In this document: one piece after another, positions 9,607-42,447 of the stretch | How positions within the stretch are numbered: the stretch's first letter is position 1 | Layout of the letters: every line of letters begins with the position of its first letter | Assembly: GCA_014378705.1 (NCBI GenBank) | Contig: JACMND010000028.1 | Coordinates: forward strand, 1-59,775 | Direction of reading: 5' to 3' | Length of the DNA stretch: 59,775 nt | Origin: Pedobacter sp. | Lineage (GTDB): Bacteria > Bacteroidota > Bacteroidia > Sphingobacteriales > Sphingobacteriaceae | Program-made: the position numbers and the translations under genes | The notes under the pieces: generated by a model | Databases searched by the model: none | What the model saw: only the letters and a program-made list of their open reading frames with translations | What the model was told of the DNA's origin: nothing

Positions 9607-10470
9607 ATGGTATACGACATCTCTAAGTTATTACAAAAAAAGAAGAAGAGTATTATTGAGTTGTGGATTAAAAACCAGCTTTCTGAAGCCGGTTTAAGAG
9701 AAGACCTTATTTCGAACGAAGAAATTAGGCAGCAGTCTGAAGAACTGGTTGATTCACTGGTTAATAATCTCACTCAAGAGAACATAACCGAAGTCAATTC
9801 CCCAGATTTTGATGATGTTAAGGATATTTTATCCGGAATTTCCATTACACGGGCGCGGCAGGGCTTTAGCCCCCGGGAAACAGGAGCTTTTATTTTCGGC
9901 TTAAAAAACGCTCTTCTTGAATTGTTGCAGCAGGAAATTAAGGATGATAAGGAATCACTTTATGAAGCTACAATAAAAATTAACCGCTTACTTGATAGCT
10001 TTAGCATAGTAACATTCGAAACATTTATTAAAGGCCGGGAAGAAGTAATTATAAGGCAAACCGATGAAATTACAGAAATCTCGACACCGGTAATTCGCGT
10101 TTGGGACGGTATCCTGGCATTGCCTATAATTGGAACTTTAGACAGTGCGAGAACACAAGTGGTAATGGAAAACCTGTTGCAGGAAATTGTTGAAACCGGT
10201 AGCAGTATTGCCATTCTTGACATTTCCGGAGTGCCTGCCGTTGATTCACTGATTGCCCAACATCTTATAAAGACAGTTAGCGCAACACGTCTTATGGGGG
10301 CCGAATGTATCATTAGCGGCATACGTCCTGAAATTGCTCAAACTATCGTTCACTTGGGTATAGACCTATCCAATATCATCACAAAATCCACTCTTGCAAG
10401 CGCTTTAAAGTTCTCGTTCCAGTCGCTTAAGCTTGAGGTTAAAAGAATACCTGTAAAAACAGCTCAATAA
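9607..10470 (+). CDS. RsbR-like stressosome scaffold/sensor with STAS domain
   Basis: This 287-residue protein has a helical N-terminal domain (~10-150) like the RsbRD/RsbR N-terminal family, containing the segment RARQGFSPRETGAFIFGLK. A C-terminal STAS domain (~160-270) follows the Bacillus RsbR pattern closely: GILALPIIGTLDSARTQVVM, then LDISGVPAVDSLIAQHLI and SGIRPEIAQTIVHLGIDL. The two positions that are phospho-threonines in B. subtilis RsbRA correspond to Ser180 and Ser214 here, with the same 34-residue spacing. In the family this is the stress-sensing shell of a large RsbR/RsbS complex. It heads a tight five-gene operon. The input signal is unknown. Confidence 0.9.
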   Translation: MVYDISKLLQKKKKSIIELWIKNQLSEAGLREDLISNEEIRQQSEELVDSLVNNLTQENITEVNSPDFDDVKDILSGISITRARQGFSPRETGAFIFGLKNALLELLQQEIKDDKESLYEATIKINRLLDSFSIVTFETFIKGREEVIIRQTDEITEISTPVIRVWDGILALPIIGTLDSARTQVVMENLLQEIVETGSSIAILDISGVPAVDSLIAQHLIKTVSATRLMGAECIISGIRPEIAQTIVHLGIDLSNIITKSTLASALKFSFQSLKLEVKRIPVKTAQ

Positions 10471-10472
10471 CG

Positions 10473-10880
10473 ATGGAAAGAATTCCTATTCTCAAGATGG
10501 GTCAGGTTTTACTGGTAACTATTCAAATTGACTTATATGACAGGCTCGCATTATCACTGGAGTCAGACTTGGTTCAAATGGTTAAGAAAACAAGCGCTAA
10601 AGGAGTGTTAATAGATATTTCTGCAGTTTCTATTGTTGATTCATTTTTGGGAAGGATCTTCGGAAACATAGCCAGCATGTGCAAAATTTTGGATGCGGAA
10701 ACCGTAGTAGTTGGCATGCAGCCTGCTGTTGCCATTACTTTAATAGAGCTTGGACTTCCATTAACCGGCGTACATACAGCTTTGGATGTAGAAAAAGGAA
10801 TGATACTCTTAAATTCCAATATTGAGACTGACGTAGATACAACCGATGATTTAAACGAAGATGATAATTACGCTTTTTAA
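10473..10880 (+). CDS. RsbS-like STAS protein, stressosome core
   Basis: This 135-residue single STAS domain starts two nt after the RsbR-like stop. It aligns with RsbS: MERIPILKMGQVLLVTIQIDLYD, then LIDISAVSIVDSFLGRIFGNIA, where Ser57 in VDS matches phosphorylated Ser59 of B. subtilis RsbS, and VVVGMQPAVAITLIELGLPL. In the known system RsbS with RsbR sequesters RsbT until serine phosphorylation releases it. A short acidic tail (DVDTTDDLNEDD) follows the domain and is unusual for RsbS. The last 20 bp overlap the annotated start of the next gene. Confidence 0.92.
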   Translation: MERIPILKMGQVLLVTIQIDLYDRLALSLESDLVQMVKKTSAKGVLIDISAVSIVDSFLGRIFGNIASMCKILDAETVVVGMQPAVAITLIELGLPLTGVHTALDVEKGMILLNSNIETDVDTTDDLNEDDNYAF

Positions 10881-11274
10881 AGTAAGCATGAGAATTGAAA
10901 GGGATCAGGATGTTGTGCCGTTCAGAAACCGTGTTAAAGAGTATGCTGTTAAAATTAAGATGGGTATTGTTAATCAAACTAAATTAATAACCGCAGCGAG
11001 CGAGTTGGTGCGTAATATGTTAAAATATGCAAAAGGAGGAGAAGCTTTAATTGAAATAGTTACCCAGGGACGTTATAATGGTGTCCGCCTTTCGTTTAAA
11101 GACCAGGGTTCGGGAATAAGTGATATAGATCTGGCCATGAAAGACGGATATTCAACGGAGAAAAGCCTAGGGCTGGGTTTGCCAGGAGCGAAACGATTAG
11201 TAGATGATTTTAACATTATAAGTAATGTTGGCCATGGAACCACAGTGGTTGTAATAAAATGGGCGAATGGTTAA
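10861..11274 (+). CDS. RsbT-like serine kinase (anti-sigma regulatory factor family)
   Basis: This 137-residue GHKL ATPase has all the needed motifs: N-box SELVRNMLKYAKGG (E48, N52), G1 DQGSGI (81-86), G2 GLGLPGAKRL (104-113) and a C-terminal GHGTTVVV strand. In stressosomes RsbT phosphorylates RsbR and RsbS and then leaves the complex to activate an output protein. The ATG at 10861 overlaps RsbS by 20 bp; an in-frame ATG at 10888 would remove the overlap and aligns equally well with Bacillus RsbT, so the start is uncertain. No RsbU-type phosphatase gene is in the operon. Confidence 0.92.
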   Translation: MIITLFKVSMRIERDQDVVPFRNRVKEYAVKIKMGIVNQTKLITAASELVRNMLKYAKGGEALIEIVTQGRYNGVRLSFKDQGSGISDIDLAMKDGYSTEKSLGLGLPGAKRLVDDFNIISNVGHGTTVVVIKWANG

Positions 11275-12277
11275 TGCAACGCATACAAGTTATTGTGCAG
11301 AAAACAGGAGTTACTTTTTCTTATTAAAAAAGGATATCCATAAAAATGCCGCTGAAGCTGGATTTAATTCTCAGCAACTTGGTAACATAGATATCATTGT
11401 TGCTGAAATGACATCAAACCTTCTCAAATTTGCAGAAAAAGGCGAGATCCTGATGTGTATATCAGGGGAAAAGGATCAGGAATACCTGGAGTTAATTTGC
11501 ATAGATAGTGGCCCGGGTATGTCTGACACCGACCGCATGATACAAGACGGTATATCTACTTCCGGAACTTTGGGAAACGGACTCGGCAGCATGAAACGGC
11601 TTTCTCAATATTTTGATGTTTACAGTATTATAGGCTGGGGCACAATCATTGTTTGCAGGGTGTATAAAAATCCGCAAAAAACTAGCAAACTAAAACATAT
11701 TTTGTTGCGATCAATAGTAGTAGCAATGCCCGGCGAAATAGTAAGTGGCGACGGTCTGTTTTATGCCCAATCGGCTGATTATTTTAAATTATTGGTTGCT
11801 GATGGGCTCGGGCATGGAACGGAAGCAAATAAAGCAATTATAGAGGCTGGGAAAGCGTTTAAACAATGCAGAGAAAAAGACCCGTCCGAAATAATAAGAT
11901 ACGTTCATGAATCGATAAAAAAAACCAGGGGAGCAGTAGGAACAATTGTAATTTGTGATTTTAAGAGCAAAATTTGGAAAATTGCCGGAGTTGGAAATAT
12001 ATCAACCTGTGTGACCAATTACCAAAGTGTGAGGCAATTAATGCCTTATAACGGGATAATTGGACATAACATTCCAAATACAATAGGGATAAACGAGATT
12101 GCGATAGCCGACTTTCAACAGATCATACTCTGTTCTGACGGATTAAAACCTCGTTTGAACCTCAACAAGTATTCAGGTATTCATAGATACGACCTAACTT
12201 TTCTTGCGGCAGCACTATATAAAGATCATGCAAGAAAAACTGATGATATGTCTGTTGTGATTTGCAAAGTCAATTAA
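11267..12277 (+). CDS. Fusion of RsbT-like GHKL kinase domain with RsbX-like PP2C phosphatase
   Basis: This 336-residue protein overlaps the preceding gene by 8 bp. Residues ~1-135 are a second RsbT-like ATPase with intact motifs: AEMTSNLLKFAEKG (E47, N51), DSGPGM (80-85), GNGLGSMKRL (103-112). Residues ~145-336 are a PP2C/SpoIIE-type domain resembling RsbX: metal-site aspartates in SGDGLF (D162), DGLGHG (179-184), CSDG (D291) and the TDD near the end (D326, D327). RsbX in the family dephosphorylates RsbR and RsbS to reset the stressosome. Here kinase-fold and phosphatase lie on one chain; both look catalytically competent by motif. Confidence 0.88.
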   Translation: MVNATHTSYCAENRSYFFLLKKDIHKNAAEAGFNSQQLGNIDIIVAEMTSNLLKFAEKGEILMCISGEKDQEYLELICIDSGPGMSDTDRMIQDGISTSGTLGNGLGSMKRLSQYFDVYSIIGWGTIIVCRVYKNPQKTSKLKHILLRSIVVAMPGEIVSGDGLFYAQSADYFKLLVADGLGHGTEANKAIIEAGKAFKQCREKDPSEIIRYVHESIKKTRGAVGTIVICDFKSKIWKIAGVGNISTCVTNYQSVRQLMPYNGIIGHNIPNTIGINEIAIADFQQIILCSDGLKPRLNLNKYSGIHRYDLTFLAAALYKDHARKTDDMSVVICKVN

Positions 12278-12278
12278 C

Positions 12279-13496
12279 ATGCAAGAACTCATTAGCCTTA
12301 CTTTAGAAAACGAAATGGACCTGGTACTGGCCCAAAAGAAAGCAATTAAGCTTGCCGAAAAACTGAAACTAAGGCTTTCCACACAGGCAATATTTTCTAC
12401 TGCCATAGCCGAATTATGCAGGGTGGTTATAGATTATACCGATACAGGCGTATTATCTCTGGGGCTTAAAGAAACTTCTAGTACGTACTCACTTTTAGGA
12501 GTTATACAATACCAAGGACAAAAGGAAAACCTGATCCCGGAAGAAAAATTCTTTTACGCTAAAAAGCTTGTGCCCTTTTTTGAAACCTTTGTACTGGACA
12601 ATGTATTTACAATAGAAATTGGAATTAAACTGCCTCTTTCTTTAAGTCTCGACTTAGTAAAAGTGAAGGAGCTTAAAAGTTATTTCAACCTTCAACCTCC
12701 CCTTTCAACATATGAAGTTGTTAAAAGAAAGAATAGTGAATTATCTATAATTTCGAAAGATAAAGATGCCCAGTTAAAGCAATCAAAATATATCGATGAC
12801 AAGCGTAATGAATTTATATCTATCGCAAGCCATGAGTTAAAAACGCCTATCACTATTATTAAGGCTTATACCCAACTGGCTTTGGCACGAAAAGACCAAT
12901 GCAGTGATCAGGTCGTTGACTTTTTAATGAAAATTGATTCGCAATCTACCAAACTTAAAAACCTGGTTGAACAGTTGCTTGATACATCTAAAATTGAAAA
13001 TGGTAAGTTAGAATACCATTTTGAAGAGGTAGATTTAAATGCTTTTATTGAAGAAATGCAATTTCTACTCAATAATTTAATACCTGATCATTCCTTAAAA
13101 ATAGACTTGGGTCCAACAGTAATGGTTAAAATAGACCGGGAAAGAATGAGCCAGGTATTTACCAACCTGATCAGTAACTCCGGAAAATATTCAAAGACCG
13201 GAAGCCTTGTTTCTTTAAAAACATCCGTAAATAAAAAGGGGGTTTTAACCGTTGCTGTAACAGACAACGGTATCGGCATGGCTAAATTAGGTATTAATAA
13301 AATTTTTGATAAATATCATCGTGATAAACAAGCAATTAATGGTTACTCGGGCCTGGGTATGGGGCTCTACATTTGTTCAGTTATTATAAAAGATCATGGC
13401 GGTAAAATATGGGTTAAAAGCACTGAGAATAAAGGATCTACCTTTTATTTCTCCCTGATGGAAGTATCACCATCAACGAACCTGTATGCACAATAA
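12279..13496 (+). CDS. Histidine kinase with degenerate RsbT-like N-terminal domain
   Basis: This 405-residue soluble protein starts one nt after the previous stop. Residues ~1-125 resemble the two preceding RsbT-like domains (STAIAELCRVVIDYTDTG, then AKKLVPFFETFVLDNVFTIEIGIKL) but the N-box asparagine is Val49 and the G1 and G2 glycine motifs are gone, so it should not bind ATP. A linker follows. Then come HisKA with SIASHELKTPI (His185) and a complete HATPase (NLISNSGKYSKTG, TDNGIGM, GLGMGLYI). I infer that the N-terminal domain docks on the stressosome or an RsbT, making this kinase the output. There is no receiver domain and no response-regulator gene beside it. Confidence 0.87.
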   Translation: MQELISLTLENEMDLVLAQKKAIKLAEKLKLRLSTQAIFSTAIAELCRVVIDYTDTGVLSLGLKETSSTYSLLGVIQYQGQKENLIPEEKFFYAKKLVPFFETFVLDNVFTIEIGIKLPLSLSLDLVKVKELKSYFNLQPPLSTYEVVKRKNSELSIISKDKDAQLKQSKYIDDKRNEFISIASHELKTPITIIKAYTQLALARKDQCSDQVVDFLMKIDSQSTKLKNLVEQLLDTSKIENGKLEYHFEEVDLNAFIEEMQFLLNNLIPDHSLKIDLGPTVMVKIDRERMSQVFTNLISNSGKYSKTGSLVSLKTSVNKKGVLTVAVTDNGIGMAKLGINKIFDKYHRDKQAINGYSGLGMGLYICSVIIKDHGGKIWVKSTENKGSTFYFSLMEVSPSTNLYAQ

Positions 13497-13539: not shown

Positions 13540-14982
13540 TTAAGCAAGAGGTATGCTGAACCAAAAAGTGCTGCCTTTTCCTATTTCACTTTCCGCACCC
13601 ATTTCTCCTCCGTGCCTCTTAATAATCTCAGAGGATATGTACAACCCTAAACCAAACCCTGAATGCTGGCTGCCGTTACTTTCTACGCGATAAAAACGAT
13701 CAAATAAAAGAGGTAACTCGTCTTTTTCAATTCCTGTGCCCGTATCTGATACACTAACTTTTGCCTGGTTATTTACCTCTTCAATATTTACCTTAATAAC
13801 CTTAGATTCAGGAGCGTATTTTATCGCATTATTGATCAGACTACACAAAACTTGTTCAATACGTTCTGCAACGGCATAAACTTTAAGATGGATATCGCCG
13901 GAGGTTTCAATAGAATAGGTACCCGATTCTGTAATGTTATTACAACAAGTATTTACCAATTCTGAAAGAATTACTACTGATTTATTGAGCTGCATAAAAT
14001 GGTTATCCATGTTGTTAGCACTAAGCAGATCATCAATAAGTGAGTTTACCTTAACCATGCTTTTATTAGCTTTTTTAATTACTTCACGCAACTTACTATC
14101 CGGATTGTAAACCATTTTGTTTATTAATTGCAGAGAAGCGTTAAGGCTGGTGATAGGCGTATTTAATTCATGGCTGGCGATACTAATAAAATCTTCTCTC
14201 TGTTGTTCCAGTAGTTTTTCTTGTGTAATGTCCTTAATTGTTCCTATTATCCGGATTGGATTTCCTTTTTCATCAACTTCTGCTTCTCCCTGCAAATGGA
14301 TCCATTTAACAGATTGACAATGCGTTAGTATTCTGCCTTTAAAATTAAAATTTCTGTATTCCGCCAGCACTTCAAATGCTTCGTTAAACAGGTCTCCGTC
14401 AGAAGGTAAAATGTAAAGTAAATATGTTTCCCGGTTCCACAATTTTAAAGAGTTATCATTTTCAAAAATAGAATCATGAGATTTTGAAGGTATAACTGAG
14501 AAATCTTTAAGATCCATTTCCCAGGCAGCCATTTTAGAATACTTTAAAGCCAGGTTTAGGCGTTTGTCACTTTCTTCAAAATGCTTAAACCCGGTAATAT
14601 TATCCAAGACTGTAAAGCCATAAGTAATCCCTTTTTCTTTAAACAAAATAGTGGTAACATTAACCCAGACAATGGTATTATCCTTTTTCAACAAACAAAC
14701 TTCTAGTTTAAAGAAGGGCCTGTTTTTATTCCATAGCTCGTTATTTAGATGTATCCAGTGGTCTTTATATTCCTCGCAGACGTAATCCAATATTTTGGTT
14801 CCGGTTATTTCATCCTCAGAAAAACCAAGTAGTTCTGTTAATGCTTTGTTAACCTTTACTATCTTTAAATTAGAATCAATAATATTACTGGCGACAGAAG
14901 TTAACCTGAAAATATTCTGAAACTTGTCTACACTTTCTTTGAATCTGTGTTGATACGTAGTTTCTTCATGATGGTTTAACAT
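13540..14982 (-). CDS. PAS-domain sensor histidine kinase
   Basis: This 480-residue protein has no membrane segment. PAS domain 1 spans ~20-130 (NKALTELLGFSEDEITGTKILDYV), and a second PAS/PAC unit ~140-255 ends GTIKDITQEKLLEQQ. HisKA follows with SIASHELNTPI (His271), then HATPase_c with NNAIKYAPESK, SDTGTGI and GLGLYISSEIIKRHGG. It is a cytosolic hybrid-free kinase with unknown signal. It is convergent with the stressosome operon (43-bp gap), so its place here may be coincidental or a second input to the same response regulator. No regulator gene is adjacent. Confidence 0.92.
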   Translation of the reverse strand: MLNHHEETTYQHRFKESVDKFQNIFRLTSVASNIIDSNLKIVKVNKALTELLGFSEDEITGTKILDYVCEEYKDHWIHLNNELWNKNRPFFKLEVCLLKKDNTIVWVNVTTILFKEKGITYGFTVLDNITGFKHFEESDKRLNLALKYSKMAAWEMDLKDFSVIPSKSHDSIFENDNSLKLWNRETYLLYILPSDGDLFNEAFEVLAEYRNFNFKGRILTHCQSVKWIHLQGEAEVDEKGNPIRIIGTIKDITQEKLLEQQREDFISIASHELNTPITSLNASLQLINKMVYNPDSKLREVIKKANKSMVKVNSLIDDLLSANNMDNHFMQLNKSVVILSELVNTCCNNITESGTYSIETSGDIHLKVYAVAERIEQVLCSLINNAIKYAPESKVIKVNIEEVNNQAKVSVSDTGTGIEKDELPLLFDRFYRVESNGSQHSGFGLGLYISSEIIKRHGGEMGAESEIGKGSTFWFSIPLA

Positions 14983-34441: not shown

Positions 34442-35035
34442 GTGACACGTCTTTTATCCAGAAACGAAAATTTGAAAGCTGTTTATACAGATCAGCATTT
34501 TGACCTGGTGGTTGAATGCAAAAAAGGTAGCCGCAAAGCGCAATATAACTTATACCAGCTTTATTCTAAAGCCATGTTTAACGTTACGTTGCGAATTTTG
34601 AATAACCCGGACGAAGCGGCAGACGTGCTTCAGGAAGCATTTATTGATGCTTTTGGACGCATGGCAGATTTTAGGCAGGAAACCACTTTCGGTTTGTGGA
34701 TGAAACAGATTGTAATCAATAAATCTATCAGCCAGCTTCGAAAACGGAAAATGAACATAGTTTCAATTGATGAAATGGTTCTTGAAATACCGGATGATGA
34801 TGAATGTGCCGATATGGAGGAAATTGAATTGCAGGTGAAACATGTAAAATCAGCGATTTTAAAGTTGCCGGATGGGTACCGGGCCGTACTTTCTCTTTAC
34901 TTGTTAGAAGGCTACGATCATGAAGAGATTTCGCACATTCTAAATATCAGCGAAAATACCTCCCGCACACAATATATGCGAGCCAGAAGAAAGTTGTTAG
35001 AAATATTAAAACTCAGAGGTGTACATTATAATTAG
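34442..35035 (+). CDS. ECF-family RNA polymerase sigma factor
   Basis: This 197-residue protein has sigma-70 region 2 (DLVVECKKGSRKAQYNLYQLYSKAMFNVTLRI and LNNPDEAADVLQEAFIDAF) and region 4 (LPDGYRAVLSLYLLEGYDHEEISHILNISENTSRTQYMRARRKL). The start is GTG; an ATG alternative would delete region 2. It is followed by a membrane protein and an adhesin-like protein in the same orientation, the usual layout of a Bacteroidetes ECF module. The signal is unknown. Confidence 0.95.
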   Translation: MTRLLSRNENLKAVYTDQHFDLVVECKKGSRKAQYNLYQLYSKAMFNVTLRILNNPDEAADVLQEAFIDAFGRMADFRQETTFGLWMKQIVINKSISQLRKRKMNIVSIDEMVLEIPDDDECADMEEIELQVKHVKSAILKLPDGYRAVLSLYLLEGYDHEEISHILNISENTSRTQYMRARRKLLEILKLRGVHYN

Positions 35036-35078
35036 GAAGATTTAATTTTTAAATATCAGATTGTAAAGAGAGAGAGAA

Positions 35079-35633
35079 ATGGAAAAAAGATTGGAGGATT
35101 TTATCAGGGACAATAAAAAAGATTTTAACGATGCGGTGCCGCCTGATGGATTGTGGGAAAAAATAGGAAAAAAACTGGAAGAACAGAACAGTAGCAGATT
35201 AAAAAATGCAAAGGTTGTAAAATTGAGCCTTATTTTACAAATCGCTGCTTCCGTATCCATCGTTATCGCGGCAAGCATGTTTTTATGGCAATACCAGTAT
35301 AAACAGGCTACAGATCTGGCGAATATTGATCCGGCTTTGGCCAGGCAACAATTGCACTATGCCTCTGTAATTGAAATTAAGAGAAGCGAACTGAGAAGCT
35401 TAGAAAAAGAGGAGCCACAGTTGTATAACGAGTTCTCTTCAGAGATAAGAAAGATGGACGAAAGTTATCAAAGATTAGTTAAAGATCTTCCGGAAAGTCC
35501 GAACCAGGAGGAAACAGTTAAAGCAATGATTCAGAATTTACAGACGCAAACTGAAGTTTTAAACCAGCAGCTAATCGTAATTAAACAGATTAACGATTCA
35601 AAAAAACAAGACAATGAAACTCAAAGTATATAA
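35079..35633 (+). CDS. Single-pass membrane protein, candidate anti-sigma factor
   Basis: This 184-residue protein has an N-terminal cytosolic segment (~1-47, DFNDAVPPDGLWEKIGKKLEE), one membrane helix (~48-70, LSLILQIAASVSIVIAASMFLW) and a helical periplasmic part (~75-184) with heptad-like content. The layout, short cytosolic N-terminus then one helix, downstream of an ECF sigma gene, suggests an anti-sigma factor. I see no zinc-binding His-x3-Cys-x2-Cys motif, so this is inference from context. It overlaps the next gene by 20 bp. Confidence 0.7.
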   Translation: MEKRLEDFIRDNKKDFNDAVPPDGLWEKIGKKLEEQNSSRLKNAKVVKLSLILQIAASVSIVIAASMFLWQYQYKQATDLANIDPALARQQLHYASVIEIKRSELRSLEKEEPQLYNEFSSEIRKMDESYQRLVKDLPESPNQEETVKAMIQNLQTQTEVLNQQLIVIKQINDSKKQDNETQSI

Positions 35634-36879
35634 GACGATTATTTTTATTGCTGCTTTATTATTTAATCAACATCTGCTTGCTCAAGATTTAAGGCCTCCT
35701 TTACAGGAGCAATCCAATAAAATCAAGTCTGAAAAGAGATTAAATGTTCTACCGGAATTTAATAATGAATTGAAAGGTATTTATATAAAATTGCCCAATA
35801 TTGATTTGTTACTTAAGAATTTAGAATTTAATATTGAACCTGTAATTGCTGGTCTGGAACAAAATTTGGAGAACGTTCTAAGCCAAATAGATTTTGATAT
35901 CGTTGTTACGGATGATCAAAATTTACCAGACTTGAATACCGATGGTAAAAATTATGTCCAGGCATCAGAAAAAGTAAAGAACCTGAGCAAATCATATTCT
36001 GTTGATTCAAAAGACAAACTGGCTATTAACAATCAGTATGGCAAAGTTGTAATTAACACCTGGAAAAAAAATGAAATTAAAGTTGAAGTAGAAATTAAGG
36101 CCTACGAATCTTCTGATAGTAAAGCTCAGGATTTGCTCAACGCTGTTTCTATTGCTGAATCCAGGCAAGGCGACGTTATCAGTTACAAAACAAATATTAA
36201 CAAAAGCAGTATGAACTGGTGGTCGAGAACAAAAAACGGAAATGAAGAGAAGCGAGGTGTTCAAGTTAATTACACGGTTTATATGCCGTCAGTAAATCCG
36301 CTTGACTTAACCAACAAATATGGGAGTACCACGCTTTCAGATTTTGAAGGCCCGGTTAATATCAATAGTTCTTATGGATCATTAGCGGCGCAGAATCTGT
36401 CTAACCCTGCAAACAGGATAAAAATAAGTTATGGATCTGCTGCTTTGAAAAGTTTTTCCTCAGGCGTTCTGGATGTGTCTTATGGTAGTTTAAAACTTGA
36501 TAACGCGGATAAAATGAGTGCTGATATTCGGTATAGTAGCGCCAAAATAGGCCGGCTCACCAGCAGCGGAAAAATTGATGTGGCCTACGGTTCATGCCGG
36601 ATTGAAGAGATGGATAAAAATGTTAAAAACCTGGTAATTAATTCCTCTTATTCCGGTTTAACTATTGGAATTGATGAATCAGCTAATTTTAATTTTGATG
36701 TTACTGTAAGCTATGCCGGCTTTAATTTTAATGATGATAAAGTAAATATTACAAATCAAACACCGGACGAAAATGTAAAAGGCTTTAATCCTACCAAAAA
36801 TTATGTCGGAACTTATGGTAAAGGTTCAGATGCACGGATCATAATAAAATCCAATTACGGAGGCGTAAAATTTTTATAA
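35614..36879 (+). CDS. DUF4097-type adhesin-like secreted protein
   Basis: This 421-residue protein has a signal peptide (IIFIAALLFNQHLLAQ). From ~130 onward it carries repeated beta-strand turns with YGxV/YGS motifs (NNQYGKVVINTW, LTNKYGSTTLSDF, INSSYGSLAAQ, ISYGSAALKSF, LDVSYGSLKLD), typical of the DUF4097 beta-solenoid family. Such proteins often sit beside ECF sigma factors; the function is unknown. The 20-bp overlap with the preceding gene shows co-transcription. Confidence 0.85.
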   Translation: MKLKVYKTIIFIAALLFNQHLLAQDLRPPLQEQSNKIKSEKRLNVLPEFNNELKGIYIKLPNIDLLLKNLEFNIEPVIAGLEQNLENVLSQIDFDIVVTDDQNLPDLNTDGKNYVQASEKVKNLSKSYSVDSKDKLAINNQYGKVVINTWKKNEIKVEVEIKAYESSDSKAQDLLNAVSIAESRQGDVISYKTNINKSSMNWWSRTKNGNEEKRGVQVNYTVYMPSVNPLDLTNKYGSTTLSDFEGPVNINSSYGSLAAQNLSNPANRIKISYGSAALKSFSSGVLDVSYGSLKLDNADKMSADIRYSSAKIGRLTSSGKIDVAYGSCRIEEMDKNVKNLVINSSYSGLTIGIDESANFNFDVTVSYAGFNFNDDKVNITNQTPDENVKGFNPTKNYVGTYGKGSDARIIIKSNYGGVKFL

Positions 36880-39922: not shown

Positions 39923-40861
39923 TCAATTATATATTTTAATGACCTCCTTGTCATTATTGCTTTTCATTTCGTCAGGTATCATTTTAAGAATTTCTTTCTC
40001 CAGCGTTGCTATTAAACTTCGTTTCAGAAAATTACGGTGAGTTACCATGCTAATTTCCCGTGTAGGCTTTGGCGATTTAAACGGTCTGATTTGTTGTAAT
40101 TGTAAAGGTGAAAAGTCGCTTACAGCCAATTCTGGTAAAACCGTAACCCCTTTATTCATATCTACCATCCTTCTCAAGCTTTCAACGCTACCAGTATTGT
40201 ATTTAAATTGTTTGTAAGGGCTTTCTTTTTTAAGCCCGCAAATATTTAAAACCTGGTTGCGCATACAATTTTCGTCATTTAGCAGCCACAAGTCCTCGGG
40301 GTTGATATCCTCGGCTTCCAATGCTTTTTTATTTAACAAAATGCTTGATTTGTAAATGTAAAGCACGAATGTTTCGTAAAAAAGAGGTGTTTCTATTATA
40401 GAGCGATCATTTACTGGAGTTGATAAGATTCCACAATCCAATAAACCCAACTTTAATTGTTGTAAGATTTCTTCCGTTGTATATTCCCAAATGTGTAGTT
40501 GTACGTTTGGGTAGGATTCAGTAAATCCAGAAATAACAGACGGCAATAAGTACGGGGCTAGTGTTGGGATAATCCCAATCTTAAGTTCGCCATTAATTTC
40601 TCCCTGCTTTGTGGTAATTATCTCTTTGAGCTTTTGACTTTCTTTTAAAATAGTGCGGGATTGCTCTATAATCTCTATCCCAATCTCTGTTGGAACAACA
40701 GGCTTTCTGGTGCGGTCAAACAATTTTACACCAAGGGATTCTTCCAGTTTTAAAATTTGCATGCTTAAGGTAGGCTGGGTAACAAAGCATTTTTCAGCAG
40801 CCAAAAGAAAATTTCTGTAAGTGTCTAAAGCAATAACGTATTCTAGTTGAACTAAGGTCAT
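39923..40861 (-). CDS. oxyR: OxyR hydrogen-peroxide sensor, LysR family
   Basis: This 312-residue LTTR has an N-terminal winged HTH (LAAEKCFVTQPTLSMQILKLEESLGVKLFDRTRK) and a substrate domain. Two cysteines, Cys199 and Cys208 in NDENCMRNQVLNICGL, fall exactly at the E. coli OxyR redox-switch positions with the same spacing. On oxidation they form a disulfide that activates catalase and related genes. It is divergent from the catalase gene with an 86-bp shared control region carrying an OxyR-type site. Confidence 0.95.
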   Translation of the reverse strand: MTLVQLEYVIALDTYRNFLLAAEKCFVTQPTLSMQILKLEESLGVKLFDRTRKPVVPTEIGIEIIEQSRTILKESQKLKEIITTKQGEINGELKIGIIPTLAPYLLPSVISGFTESYPNVQLHIWEYTTEEILQQLKLGLLDCGILSTPVNDRSIIETPLFYETFVLYIYKSSILLNKKALEAEDINPEDLWLLNDENCMRNQVLNICGLKKESPYKQFKYNTGSVESLRRMVDMNKGVTVLPELAVSDFSPLQLQQIRPFKSPKPTREISMVTHRNFLKRSLIATLEKEILKMIPDEMKSNNDKEVIKIYN

Positions 40862-40863
40862 GT

Positions 40864-40908
40864 ATAGTTATTATCTATTGAGTTATAAATATTATTGATT
40901 ATACCTAT
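40864..40908. promoter_or_regulatory. OxyR-type operator between oxyR and catalase
   Basis: ATAGTTATTATCTAT (40864-40878) matches the E. coli OxyR half-site consensus ATAGnTnnnAnCTAT at every fixed position. A second copy, ATTGATTATACCTAT (40894-40908), matches with one change. The start-to-start distance is 30 bp rather than the 22 bp of the oxidised-form site, close to the extended spacing reported for reduced OxyR. Confidence 0.65.
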
Positions 40909-40947
40909 CGTAAAACTATTATTAATTTTAATTTTTACAAATTAATT

Positions 40948-42447
40948 ATGAAAGAAAATAGCAACAAGCTAACCAGTGCATCAGGCATTCCTTATACAAA
41001 TAACGAAGATTCACTCACTGCAGGGCCACGCGGACCAATACTTTTACAGGATGTTATCCTTCATGAAAAAATGGCGCATTTTAACCGTGAACGTATACCC
41101 GAACGGGTGGTTCATGCCAAAGGTTCAGGTGCTTACGGAACCTTTACCGTTACGCATGATATAAGTAAATATACCCGGGCAAAGATTTTTAGCACGATGG
41201 GCAAACAAACAAAAATGTTCCTCAGGTTTTCAACTGTGGGCGGCGAAAAAGGCTCGGCAGATACAGAACGTGACCCACGTGGTTTCGCTTTAAAATTTTA
41301 TACCGAAGATGGAAACTGGGACCTGGTAGGTAATAACACACCGGTTTTCTTTGTAAAAGATCCAAAGAAGTTTGGCGATTTCATCCACACCCAAAAAAGA
41401 GACCCGCATACAAATTGTAAAAGCCCGACAATGATGTGGGATTTTTGGTCATTAAACCCCGAAAGCTTGCATCAGGTCCTTATTTTAATGTCTGATCGGG
41501 GAACACCATACAGCTATCGTCATATGCACGGCTTCGGAAGTCATACATTTTCTTTTATCAATGCAGATAATGAAAGATTTTGGGTTAAATTTCATTTCAA
41601 AACCAAGCAGGGGATTAAAAATTTTACAGATACTGAATCAGGTTTAATGAAAGGGAAAGACGGCGACTGGGCGCAGCGTGATCTTGTTGAATCAATACAA
41701 AATGGAGACTTTCCTAAATGGTCAATGAAAGTTCAGATAATGACCCAGCAAGAAGCTAAATCTTATCATTTAAACCCTTTTGATTTGACCAAAGTATGGC
41801 CTCATGCTGATTTTCCTTTAATCGATGTGGGCGAAATAGAATTAAACGAAAACCCAAATAATTATTTTGCGCATGTTGAGCAAGCTGCTTTTGCACCCTC
41901 ACATGTTGTAGATGGTATTGGATTTTCTCATGATAAAATGTTGCAGGGGCGTTTACTGTCCTATCCAGATGCACAACGTTACCGCTTGGGTAGTAATTAC
42001 GAGCAGATTCCTGTAAATCGTTGTCCGTATTTGGTGAATAATTATCAGCGGGATGGTCAAATGAGGACCGACGGCAATGGTGGCGACTCACCCAATTATT
42101 CCCCAAACAGTTTTGACAATATTGCTGTAGATCAGGCTTACGAGCAACCTGCTCTTGAGCTAGAAAGTACTTTAGCTGATTTTTATGATCGAAACGCGGA
42201 AAGCGAAAACGATCATTACACACAACCGGGTAATTTATTTAGGTTGATGACACCTGAAGCACAAAAAAATACGGTTTCTAATATTGTGGGTGCAATGAGT
42301 GGAATTAGTGGGGCTAAAAGAGACATCATAATTAACAGGCAAATGTGCCATTGGTTTAGGGCGGATATGACCCTGGGAATGTCAATAGCAAATGAATTAG
42401 GTTTAAATATGGCCACATTGGCCGGTTCGATGCCACAGCATCAATAA
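40948..42447 (+). CDS. Monofunctional heme catalase, small-subunit clade
   Basis: This 499-residue protein has the catalytic His in ERVVHAKGSGAYG (His56) and Asn in VGNNTPVFF (~129), and the proximal heme Tyr in LSYPDAQRYRLGSN. It splits hydrogen peroxide to water and oxygen. The length (~500) indicates a clade 1/3 catalase without the flavodoxin-like domain. Divergent from oxyR; expression is very likely OxyR-controlled. Confidence 0.97.
   Translation: MKENSNKLTSASGIPYTNNEDSLTAGPRGPILLQDVILHEKMAHFNRERIPERVVHAKGSGAYGTFTVTHDISKYTRAKIFSTMGKQTKMFLRFSTVGGEKGSADTERDPRGFALKFYTEDGNWDLVGNNTPVFFVKDPKKFGDFIHTQKRDPHTNCKSPTMMWDFWSLNPESLHQVLILMSDRGTPYSYRHMHGFGSHTFSFINADNERFWVKFHFKTKQGIKNFTDTESGLMKGKDGDWAQRDLVESIQNGDFPKWSMKVQIMTQQEAKSYHLNPFDLTKVWPHADFPLIDVGEIELNENPNNYFAHVEQAAFAPSHVVDGIGFSHDKMLQGRLLSYPDAQRYRLGSNYEQIPVNRCPYLVNNYQRDGQMRTDGNGGDSPNYSPNSFDNIAVDQAYEQPALELESTLADFYDRNAESENDHYTQPGNLFRLMTPEAQKNTVSNIVGAMSGISGAKRDIIINRQMCHWFRADMTLGMSIANELGLNMATLAGSMPQHQ

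Follow-up and report, generated by a model that had tools for sequence, protein, structure and literature searches.

Five genes at positions 9607–13496 of a 59,775-nt stretch of Pedobacter sp. DNA (assembly GCA_014378705.1, contig JACMND010000028.1; the whole stretch is called the window) are predicted to encode a stressosome module with a histidine kinase (HK) as its output, and it is likely, as judged from sequence, that a catalytically dead RsbT domain serves as the input domain of this HK. In relatives, RsbT phosphorylates RsbS and RsbR, RsbX reverses this, and the release of RsbT passes the signal on. Modules of RsbR, RsbS, RsbT and RsbX (RSTX) joined to a two-component output are already in print (PMC9237108), as a first-pass annotation of the window had remarked; the apparently new element is the wiring of the HK through an RsbT domain. 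That annotation had described the module as wired to an HK. The wiring is still a reading of the sequence, now better grounded by an RsbT-derived N-terminal domain found in the HK of the window and at 80 of 80 related loci.

The N-terminal domain of the histidine kinase

The HK is the last gene of the operon, and its parts are as follows.

12279–13496, forward strand: HK gene (Pfam HisKA and HATPase_c), with phospho-acceptor H185 at 12831–12833 and N-box N300
12279–12638, forward strand: RsbT-derived domain of the HK, residues ~1–120 (hhalign, structure model and fold matches)
12654–12779, forward strand: linker helices, residues 126–138 and 144–167 (DSSP on the model), running from the RsbT-derived domain towards HisKA
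12804–13457, forward strand: HisKA 176–242 and HATPase_c 286–393 of the HK (Pfam)

Two overlapping collections of loci were compared with the window. The family set consists of 151 genomes of its taxonomic family (Sphingobacteriaceae), searched with the HK; the TX locus set, named after the fusion gene TX described below, holds the best 80 of 166 matches and leans towards Sphingobacteriaceae. H185 and N300 are conserved in 81/81 rows, so that both the phospho-acceptor histidine and the catalytic N-box of a two-component kinase are present. Pfam calls no domain before residue 175. When the 30 N-termini from the family set were aligned (alignment A1), a signature LENEMDLVLA...TQTTFATAVSE..R became visible, parallel to QDVV...NQTKLITAASELVRN of RsbT. 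Comparison of the HK N-terminal domain with RsbT by hhalign gave 93.9% with an E-value of 1.5e-7 (per single comparison); among the controls, the TX kinase domain came to 10.5%, the ATPase of the HK itself to 1.1% and RsbS to 0.06%. The A1 profile found ten matches across 296 genomes, six of which are HKs of complete modules; the remaining four, weaker, lie in R-S-T loci, three as stand-alone RsbT genes and one as an RsbT domain joined to an HK.

The structure model of the domain has a predicted local distance difference test score (pLDDT) of 94.0 and a predicted template modelling score (pTM) of 0.86. Its fold comparisons place it with RsbW (Z 12.8), UsfX (12.3) and SpoIIAB (11.3), the range with SiaB included being 10.8–12.8, whereas HK ATPase domains, among the matches listed, reach at most 6.6 and LvrC lies in between at 8.7. 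The fold is common to RsbW, UsfX, SpoIIAB and SiaB, from which the HK domain differs by the loss of ATP-binding residues and by its fusion to an HK. Since the fold alone cannot separate RsbT from RsbW, and no RsbT structure stood among the fold matches listed by VIA-align, it is the sequence that assigns the domain to RsbT and not to RsbW. The best-preserved part comprises the N-terminal strand and the first two helices. The N-box asparagine is retained in 1/81 rows, the adjoining glutamate and arginine being kept in 80/81 and 81/81, and the DxGxG box and the second glycine box are missing from the 30 rows of A1. Because the N-box asparagine and both glycine boxes are lost, the domain is, by alignment and model, an RsbT-type pseudo-kinase domain that keeps the fold and the signature without the ATP-binding residues. 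According to DSSP on the model, the helix of residues 144–167 extends up to HisKA.

Such a worn-out copy of the switch kinase suggests a hand-over from the stressosome to a two-component system, and the evolutionary route it suggests is a fusion of RsbT to an HK with catalysis lost afterwards. Among the papers listed from open-licence PMC, a coverage outside which older surveys fall, none described a histidine kinase with a fused RsbT domain, and none dealt with stressosomes in Pedobacter, Mucilaginibacter or their relatives.

The module and its five-gene order

Upstream of the HK, the operon contains the following features.

9607–10470, forward strand: rsbR-like gene, RsbRD_N 9619–9930 and STAS 10087–10404 (Pfam)
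10135–10137 and 10246–10248, forward strand: putative phospho-acceptors T177 and S214 of the RsbR-like protein, both kept in 79/79 rows
10473–10880, forward strand: rsbS-like gene, single STAS domain (Pfam and PDB sequence match), putative phospho-acceptor S57 at 10641–10643
10861–11274, forward strand: rsbT-like gene, stand-alone GHKL switch kinase (Pfam HATPase_c/HATPase_c_2; motifs intact)
11267–12277, forward strand: TX, an RsbT-like/RsbX-like fusion, kinase domain ~11339–11653 and PP2C ~11717–12274

All five open reading frames lie on the forward strand, with junctions R/S, S/T, T/TX and TX/HK of +2, -20, -8 and +1 nt, which bears out the five abutting or overlapping genes and the coordinates of the first-pass annotation. 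The closest PDB sequence matches of RsbR, with its N-terminal sensor domain and C-terminal STAS domain, and of RsbS are 7b0u (E 8e-35) and 6qcm (E 8e-31), the RsbR and RsbS chains of solved stressosome assemblies that we take to come from Listeria. In RsbS, D56 and S57 are present in 79/79 rows, the R and S genes being absent or partial at the contig ends of L121 and L125. The PDB sequence matches of RsbT are to SpoIIAB only (E 5e-4); its N-box (E48, N52), G1 box (D81, G83, G85) and G2 box (G104, G106, G109) are all intact, and these residues are kept in 85/85 rows of the Bacteroidia type. In TX, SpoIIE scores 28.7 bits (Pfam cut-off 25), and the kinase half falls just under the cut-offs with 25.1 bits for HATPase_c_2 (cut-off 27.4) and 24.3 bits for HATPase_c, its hhalign comparison with RsbT reaching 99.4%. 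The phosphatase half matches the SpoIIE-type phosphatase 3zt9, presumably from Moorella (E 1e-14), and RsbX 3w40 (E 2e-6). Kinase residues E47, N51, D80, G82, G84, G103 and G105 of TX are kept in 81/81 rows, as are PP2C residues D162, D179, D291 and D326, which we take to bind metal. The module is thus, by its sequence features, of stressosome type, with RsbR-, RsbS- and RsbT-type proteins and an RsbX-type PP2C fused to a kinase domain. An RsbR/S/T/X core intact by motif had been claimed earlier, and Pfam, the PDB matches and the conserved residues agree with it; the kinase-phosphatase fusion also claimed does exist and is now specified as an RsbX-like domain joined to a further RsbT-like kinase, whose motifs are intact.

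In the 151 family genomes, the HK search returned full-length matches at 30 loci in 28 genomes, the window included, with a worst E-value of 6e-79; below them a gap leads down to generic HK matches at 7e-50, and G048 holds a weaker match that starts from residue 31 (E 1e-43). The order R-S-T-TX-HK was present in the window and in 29/29 other family loci fetched, and complete in 78/80 TX loci (the remaining two are short contigs); the search for the same order in other genomes, which the first-pass annotation had proposed as a check, was therefore positive, and the arrangement is not a matter of chance, given this recurrence. With start codons picked by script, T and TX overlap by 8 nt in 29/29 loci. 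Hosts of TX loci include Mucilaginibacter, Pedobacter, Desertivirga, Olivibacter, Parapedobacter, Chitinophagaceae, Spirosoma and others. In other families of the same class, the five-gene set recurs at L163–L166 and L205 with longer HKs (539–556 aa), in which the extra stretch is PAS-like, above the cut-off in L164 and in the Chitinophagaceae locus L150 and below it in L163 and L205.

Shared flanks are limited to the two closest locus pairs (L042/L043 and L050/L051). HKs (9/30 loci) and receivers (7/30) are the commonest neighbour groups, none exceeding 9/30, and a conserved neighbour pointing to function was accordingly not obtained. Because the flanks mostly differ, the five genes are the unit. 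It is very unlikely that the HK is merely co-transcribed, as an ordinary sensor kinase with a ligand domain of its own and a function separate from the stressosome: the scarcity of linked receivers (18/80 TX loci) would suit such a kinase, whereas an HK with the special N-terminus is present in 80/80 TX loci and adjoins the module there and in 30/30 full-length HK loci while the flanks vary, and its N-terminal domain is of RsbT origin.

Five genomes of the TX set carry two modules each: Desertivirga arenae (L080/L114), Mucilaginibacter sp. SMC90 (L097/L100), M. corticis (L094/L101), M. gossypiicola (L095/L103) and a Sphingobacteriaceae metagenome-assembled genome (L076/L102). In the last of these, rsbT of one module (L062, the same locus as L076) is spread over two overlapping frames of 70 and 88 aa, and the second module (L057/L102) has an unsplit rsbT; L062 was omitted from the T alignment and L076 from the T residue counts.

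The absence of the RsbU-RsbV-RsbW-sigma-B chain, noted in the first pass, holds for the operon. In the genome of the window no sigma-B/F/G factor exceeds the curated cut-off (best 113.2 versus 234.35 bits), and RsbU with an RsbU_N domain was found in 0/151 family genomes, this one included, the B. subtilis positive control being detected. Elsewhere in the genome lie a PP2C gene (C204:45541-46089, L071), an RsbW-like HATPase_c_2 gene (C125:8681-9046, L072), which adjoins what we take to be ybeY, and a third STAS gene (C149:24672-24929); together they possibly form a second partner-switching set. That the module works through these three genes in the Bacillus manner, with the HK as a side branch, is hardly credible: the genes exist, whereas they sit on different contigs in a genome lacking both RsbU_N and a sigma-B/F/G factor over the cut-off.

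Other output kinases in the phylum

A search of 395 genomes with an RsbT profile returned 15 genomes with a match of at least 142 bits, and the gene surroundings were inspected for all 15. Seven have the pseudo-RsbT HK (G021, G072, G170, G315, G351, G393 and G460). In another seven (L167, L169, L170 and L201–L204) the downstream kinase has RsbU_N, PAS and HisKA_3, RsbU_N being above the cut-off in six and at 25.0 against 25.5 bits in L201; a receiver protein of two-domain size (212–222 aa) directly follows the kinase in 7/7 (in L167 by reading). Two of these loci, L203 and L204, consist of rsbT, the RsbU_N kinase and a regulator that is NarL-like by reading, and the profile models recognised no rsbR, rsbS or rsbX in the stretch inspected; stand-alone RsbT signalling is possible there. 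The fifteenth genome, G333 (L168), has R-S-T-TX, a receiver-HK, an HK with an N-terminal RsbT domain and then receivers. This RsbT domain keeps the N-box and glycine boxes, scores 80 bits with the T model and 51.8 bits with HATPase_c_2, and is the sole match above 142 bits in a frame of HK length. The L168 kinase is the obvious intermediate, though a single case. Across the 15 genomes the three kinds of HK are complementary in distribution, and Pfam finds no RsbU_N in the HK of the window.

In B. subtilis RsbT, R19, R23 and N24 are implicated in RsbU binding (PMC12143880). Judged by spacing only (R-x3-R-N, present in the RsbT of L204), their counterparts in the window RsbT are residues 22, 26 and 27. 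The lineages with RsbU_N have arginine at the first two positions in 7/7 and a variable third; the Bacteroidia rows (85, one gapped) have R/K/T in 55/28/1, K/R in 78/6 and E/M in 83/1. The altered residues would fit with loss of an RsbU partner, Arg to Lys being a mild change. In L168 the stand-alone RsbT has R, H and S and the fused domain R, R and K, which the loss of an RsbU partner leaves unexplained.

These residues bear on the possibility that freed RsbT itself regulates the HK, either enzymatically, through phosphorylation, or as a ligand bound to another part of it, the N-terminal domain being no more than a dimerisation or substrate module. Heinz 2022 (PMC9237108) suggested such a route, phosphorylation by RsbT, for Vibrio and for stressosome-linked kinases without RsbU_N, the passage of the signal from Gram-negative stressosomes to these kinases being left open there, and the kinase motifs of RsbT and of the TX kinase domain are indeed retained. 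We consider it unlikely, in that it leaves unexplained both the RsbT origin of the HK N-terminal domain and the RsbT domain with intact motifs in the L168 kinase, and the mapped RsbU-face residues are mostly R/K, K and E here versus R, R and variable in the RsbU_N lineages. An RsbT-derived input domain would instead be a concrete and testable answer to the question of signal passage in environmental Bacteroidia.

Proposed signal path, receivers and known systems

In the path that we propose, RsbR and RsbS would build the core and retain RsbT, and the HK would dock through its RsbT-like domain. A signal at RsbR would lead RsbT, and perhaps TX, to phosphorylate S57 of RsbS and T177/S214 of RsbR; phosphorylation of the core would free the HK domain, upon which the helical linker would alter HK activity, and the HK would phosphorylate a single-domain receiver, encoded next to it in some relatives and unlinked in the genome of the window. 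The phosphatase domain of TX would then restore the core to its start state. Docking at the STAS surface that RsbT itself binds has close to an even chance in our estimate and is favoured because the STAS core is the known resting partner of RsbT and because the motifs of the RsbT domain in the L168 HK are intact. Somewhat unlikely, by comparison, is a pseudo-kinase pairing in which the HK domain would join either RsbT or the kinase domain of TX and would tune RsbT or be gated by free RsbT; dead and active kinases commonly pair, and the strand and two helices best kept in the HK domain would agree with it. Against such a pairing, no sign of RsbT dimers came up, although no search was aimed at them. 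As a tentative possibility, short of even, we suggest that the Bacteroidia stressosome holds its output kinase directly: the dead RsbT copy on the HK would occupy RsbT sites of the RsbR-RsbS core, phosphorylation of the core by live RsbT and TX would release or switch the HK, no diffusible RsbT-RsbU step would be involved, and the L168 kinase would represent the ancestral state.

The output regulator, left unassigned in the first pass, can be narrowed to a candidate class, although the window itself has no linked receiver: the HK probably acts on a single-domain CheY-like receiver protein. In 18/80 TX loci a receiver gene starts on the same strand at most 300 nt after the HK; the three positions taken as controls (upstream on the same strand, upstream divergent and downstream convergent) gave 2/77 each. 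These counts rely on a receiver model of four rows, derived from receivers in the vicinity of modules; it may miss other types, and it was applied equally to the control positions. In the three of these 18 receivers that were scanned, Response_reg was the only domain over the cut-off. Elsewhere in the genome of the window, at C196:35236-35589, C19:630-983 and C113:4179-4526, there are three receivers closely related to the Mucilaginibacter type (171–179 bits, the next being 71). Their family, A4, is present in 96/151 family genomes, 26 of the 28 with the module (not G099 and G100) versus 70 of the 123 without it by hand tally (Fisher p 2e-4 with kinship ignored, which we do not take as proof).

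Several observations tell against the proposed wiring. The pairwise likeness of RsbT and HK in the window is weak (28% over 53 residues). When searched in reverse, an RsbT profile that had the fused domain of L168 among its rows picked up a single such HK domain, that of G072, at 44.6 bits; as further long frames, of 311 to 1309 aa, score 43–56 bits, this search was not counted as support for homology; six frames of RsbT length (in G477, G491, G317, G325 and G163, and a second in G184) score 43–68 bits. The tree of RsbT, TX and HK domains (37 rows) sets the HK domains apart on long branches with weak inner support and leaves the source paralogue unsettled. Only the genome of L168 showed an intact RsbT domain on an HK. 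The window and 62/80 TX loci lack a receiver gene at the position described, and a dedicated unlinked receiver is unsupported given A4 in the 70 genomes without the module. For the published analogue in Vibrio vulnificus, PMC9237108 reports that tests of VvRsbT with the kinase VvD1 yielded no positive interaction.

That analogue, RSTX-D1-D2 (PMC9237108, PMC10014275), likewise has a sensor kinase immediately after an RsbR-S-T-X core, with no RsbU, RsbV, RsbW or sigma-B in the operon. It differs from the module here in that its RsbX is not fused to a second RsbT-like kinase, its RsbR has a globin-coupled sensor rather than RsbRD_N, and its output is predicted to act on cyclic di-GMP (c-di-GMP); the HK here has an RsbT-derived N-terminal domain, a point in which VvD1 may differ. 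The RSTX module itself has been reported in Bacteroidetes, and most of the downstream proteins considered in PMC9237108 are without RsbU_N. Output proteins that do have it (B. subtilis RsbU, Moorella MtG and proteobacterial RsbU_N kinases; PMC12143880) consist of an N-terminal stressosome-facing domain, helices and a catalytic domain, a layout that may hold here too, except that they bear an RsbT-binding domain where the present kinase bears an RsbT-like one. The sigma-B stressosomes of B. subtilis and Listeria have RsbR, RsbS and RsbT in common with this module, conserved candidate phospho-sites included, and differ in that here there is no RsbU_N, no sigma-B-type factor over the cut-off, and an HK as the output.

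Around the operon, a PAS-HisKA kinase gene (13540–14982, reverse strand) faces it convergently; HK genes lie near 9/30 modules, in no conserved position. Further along the window, at 34442–36879, a presumed ECF-type (extracytoplasmic function) sigma factor gene is followed by two genes whose products are presumably an anti-sigma factor and a DUF4097-like protein, and at 39923–42447 a presumed OxyR-like regulator gene is divergent from a presumably catalase-like gene.

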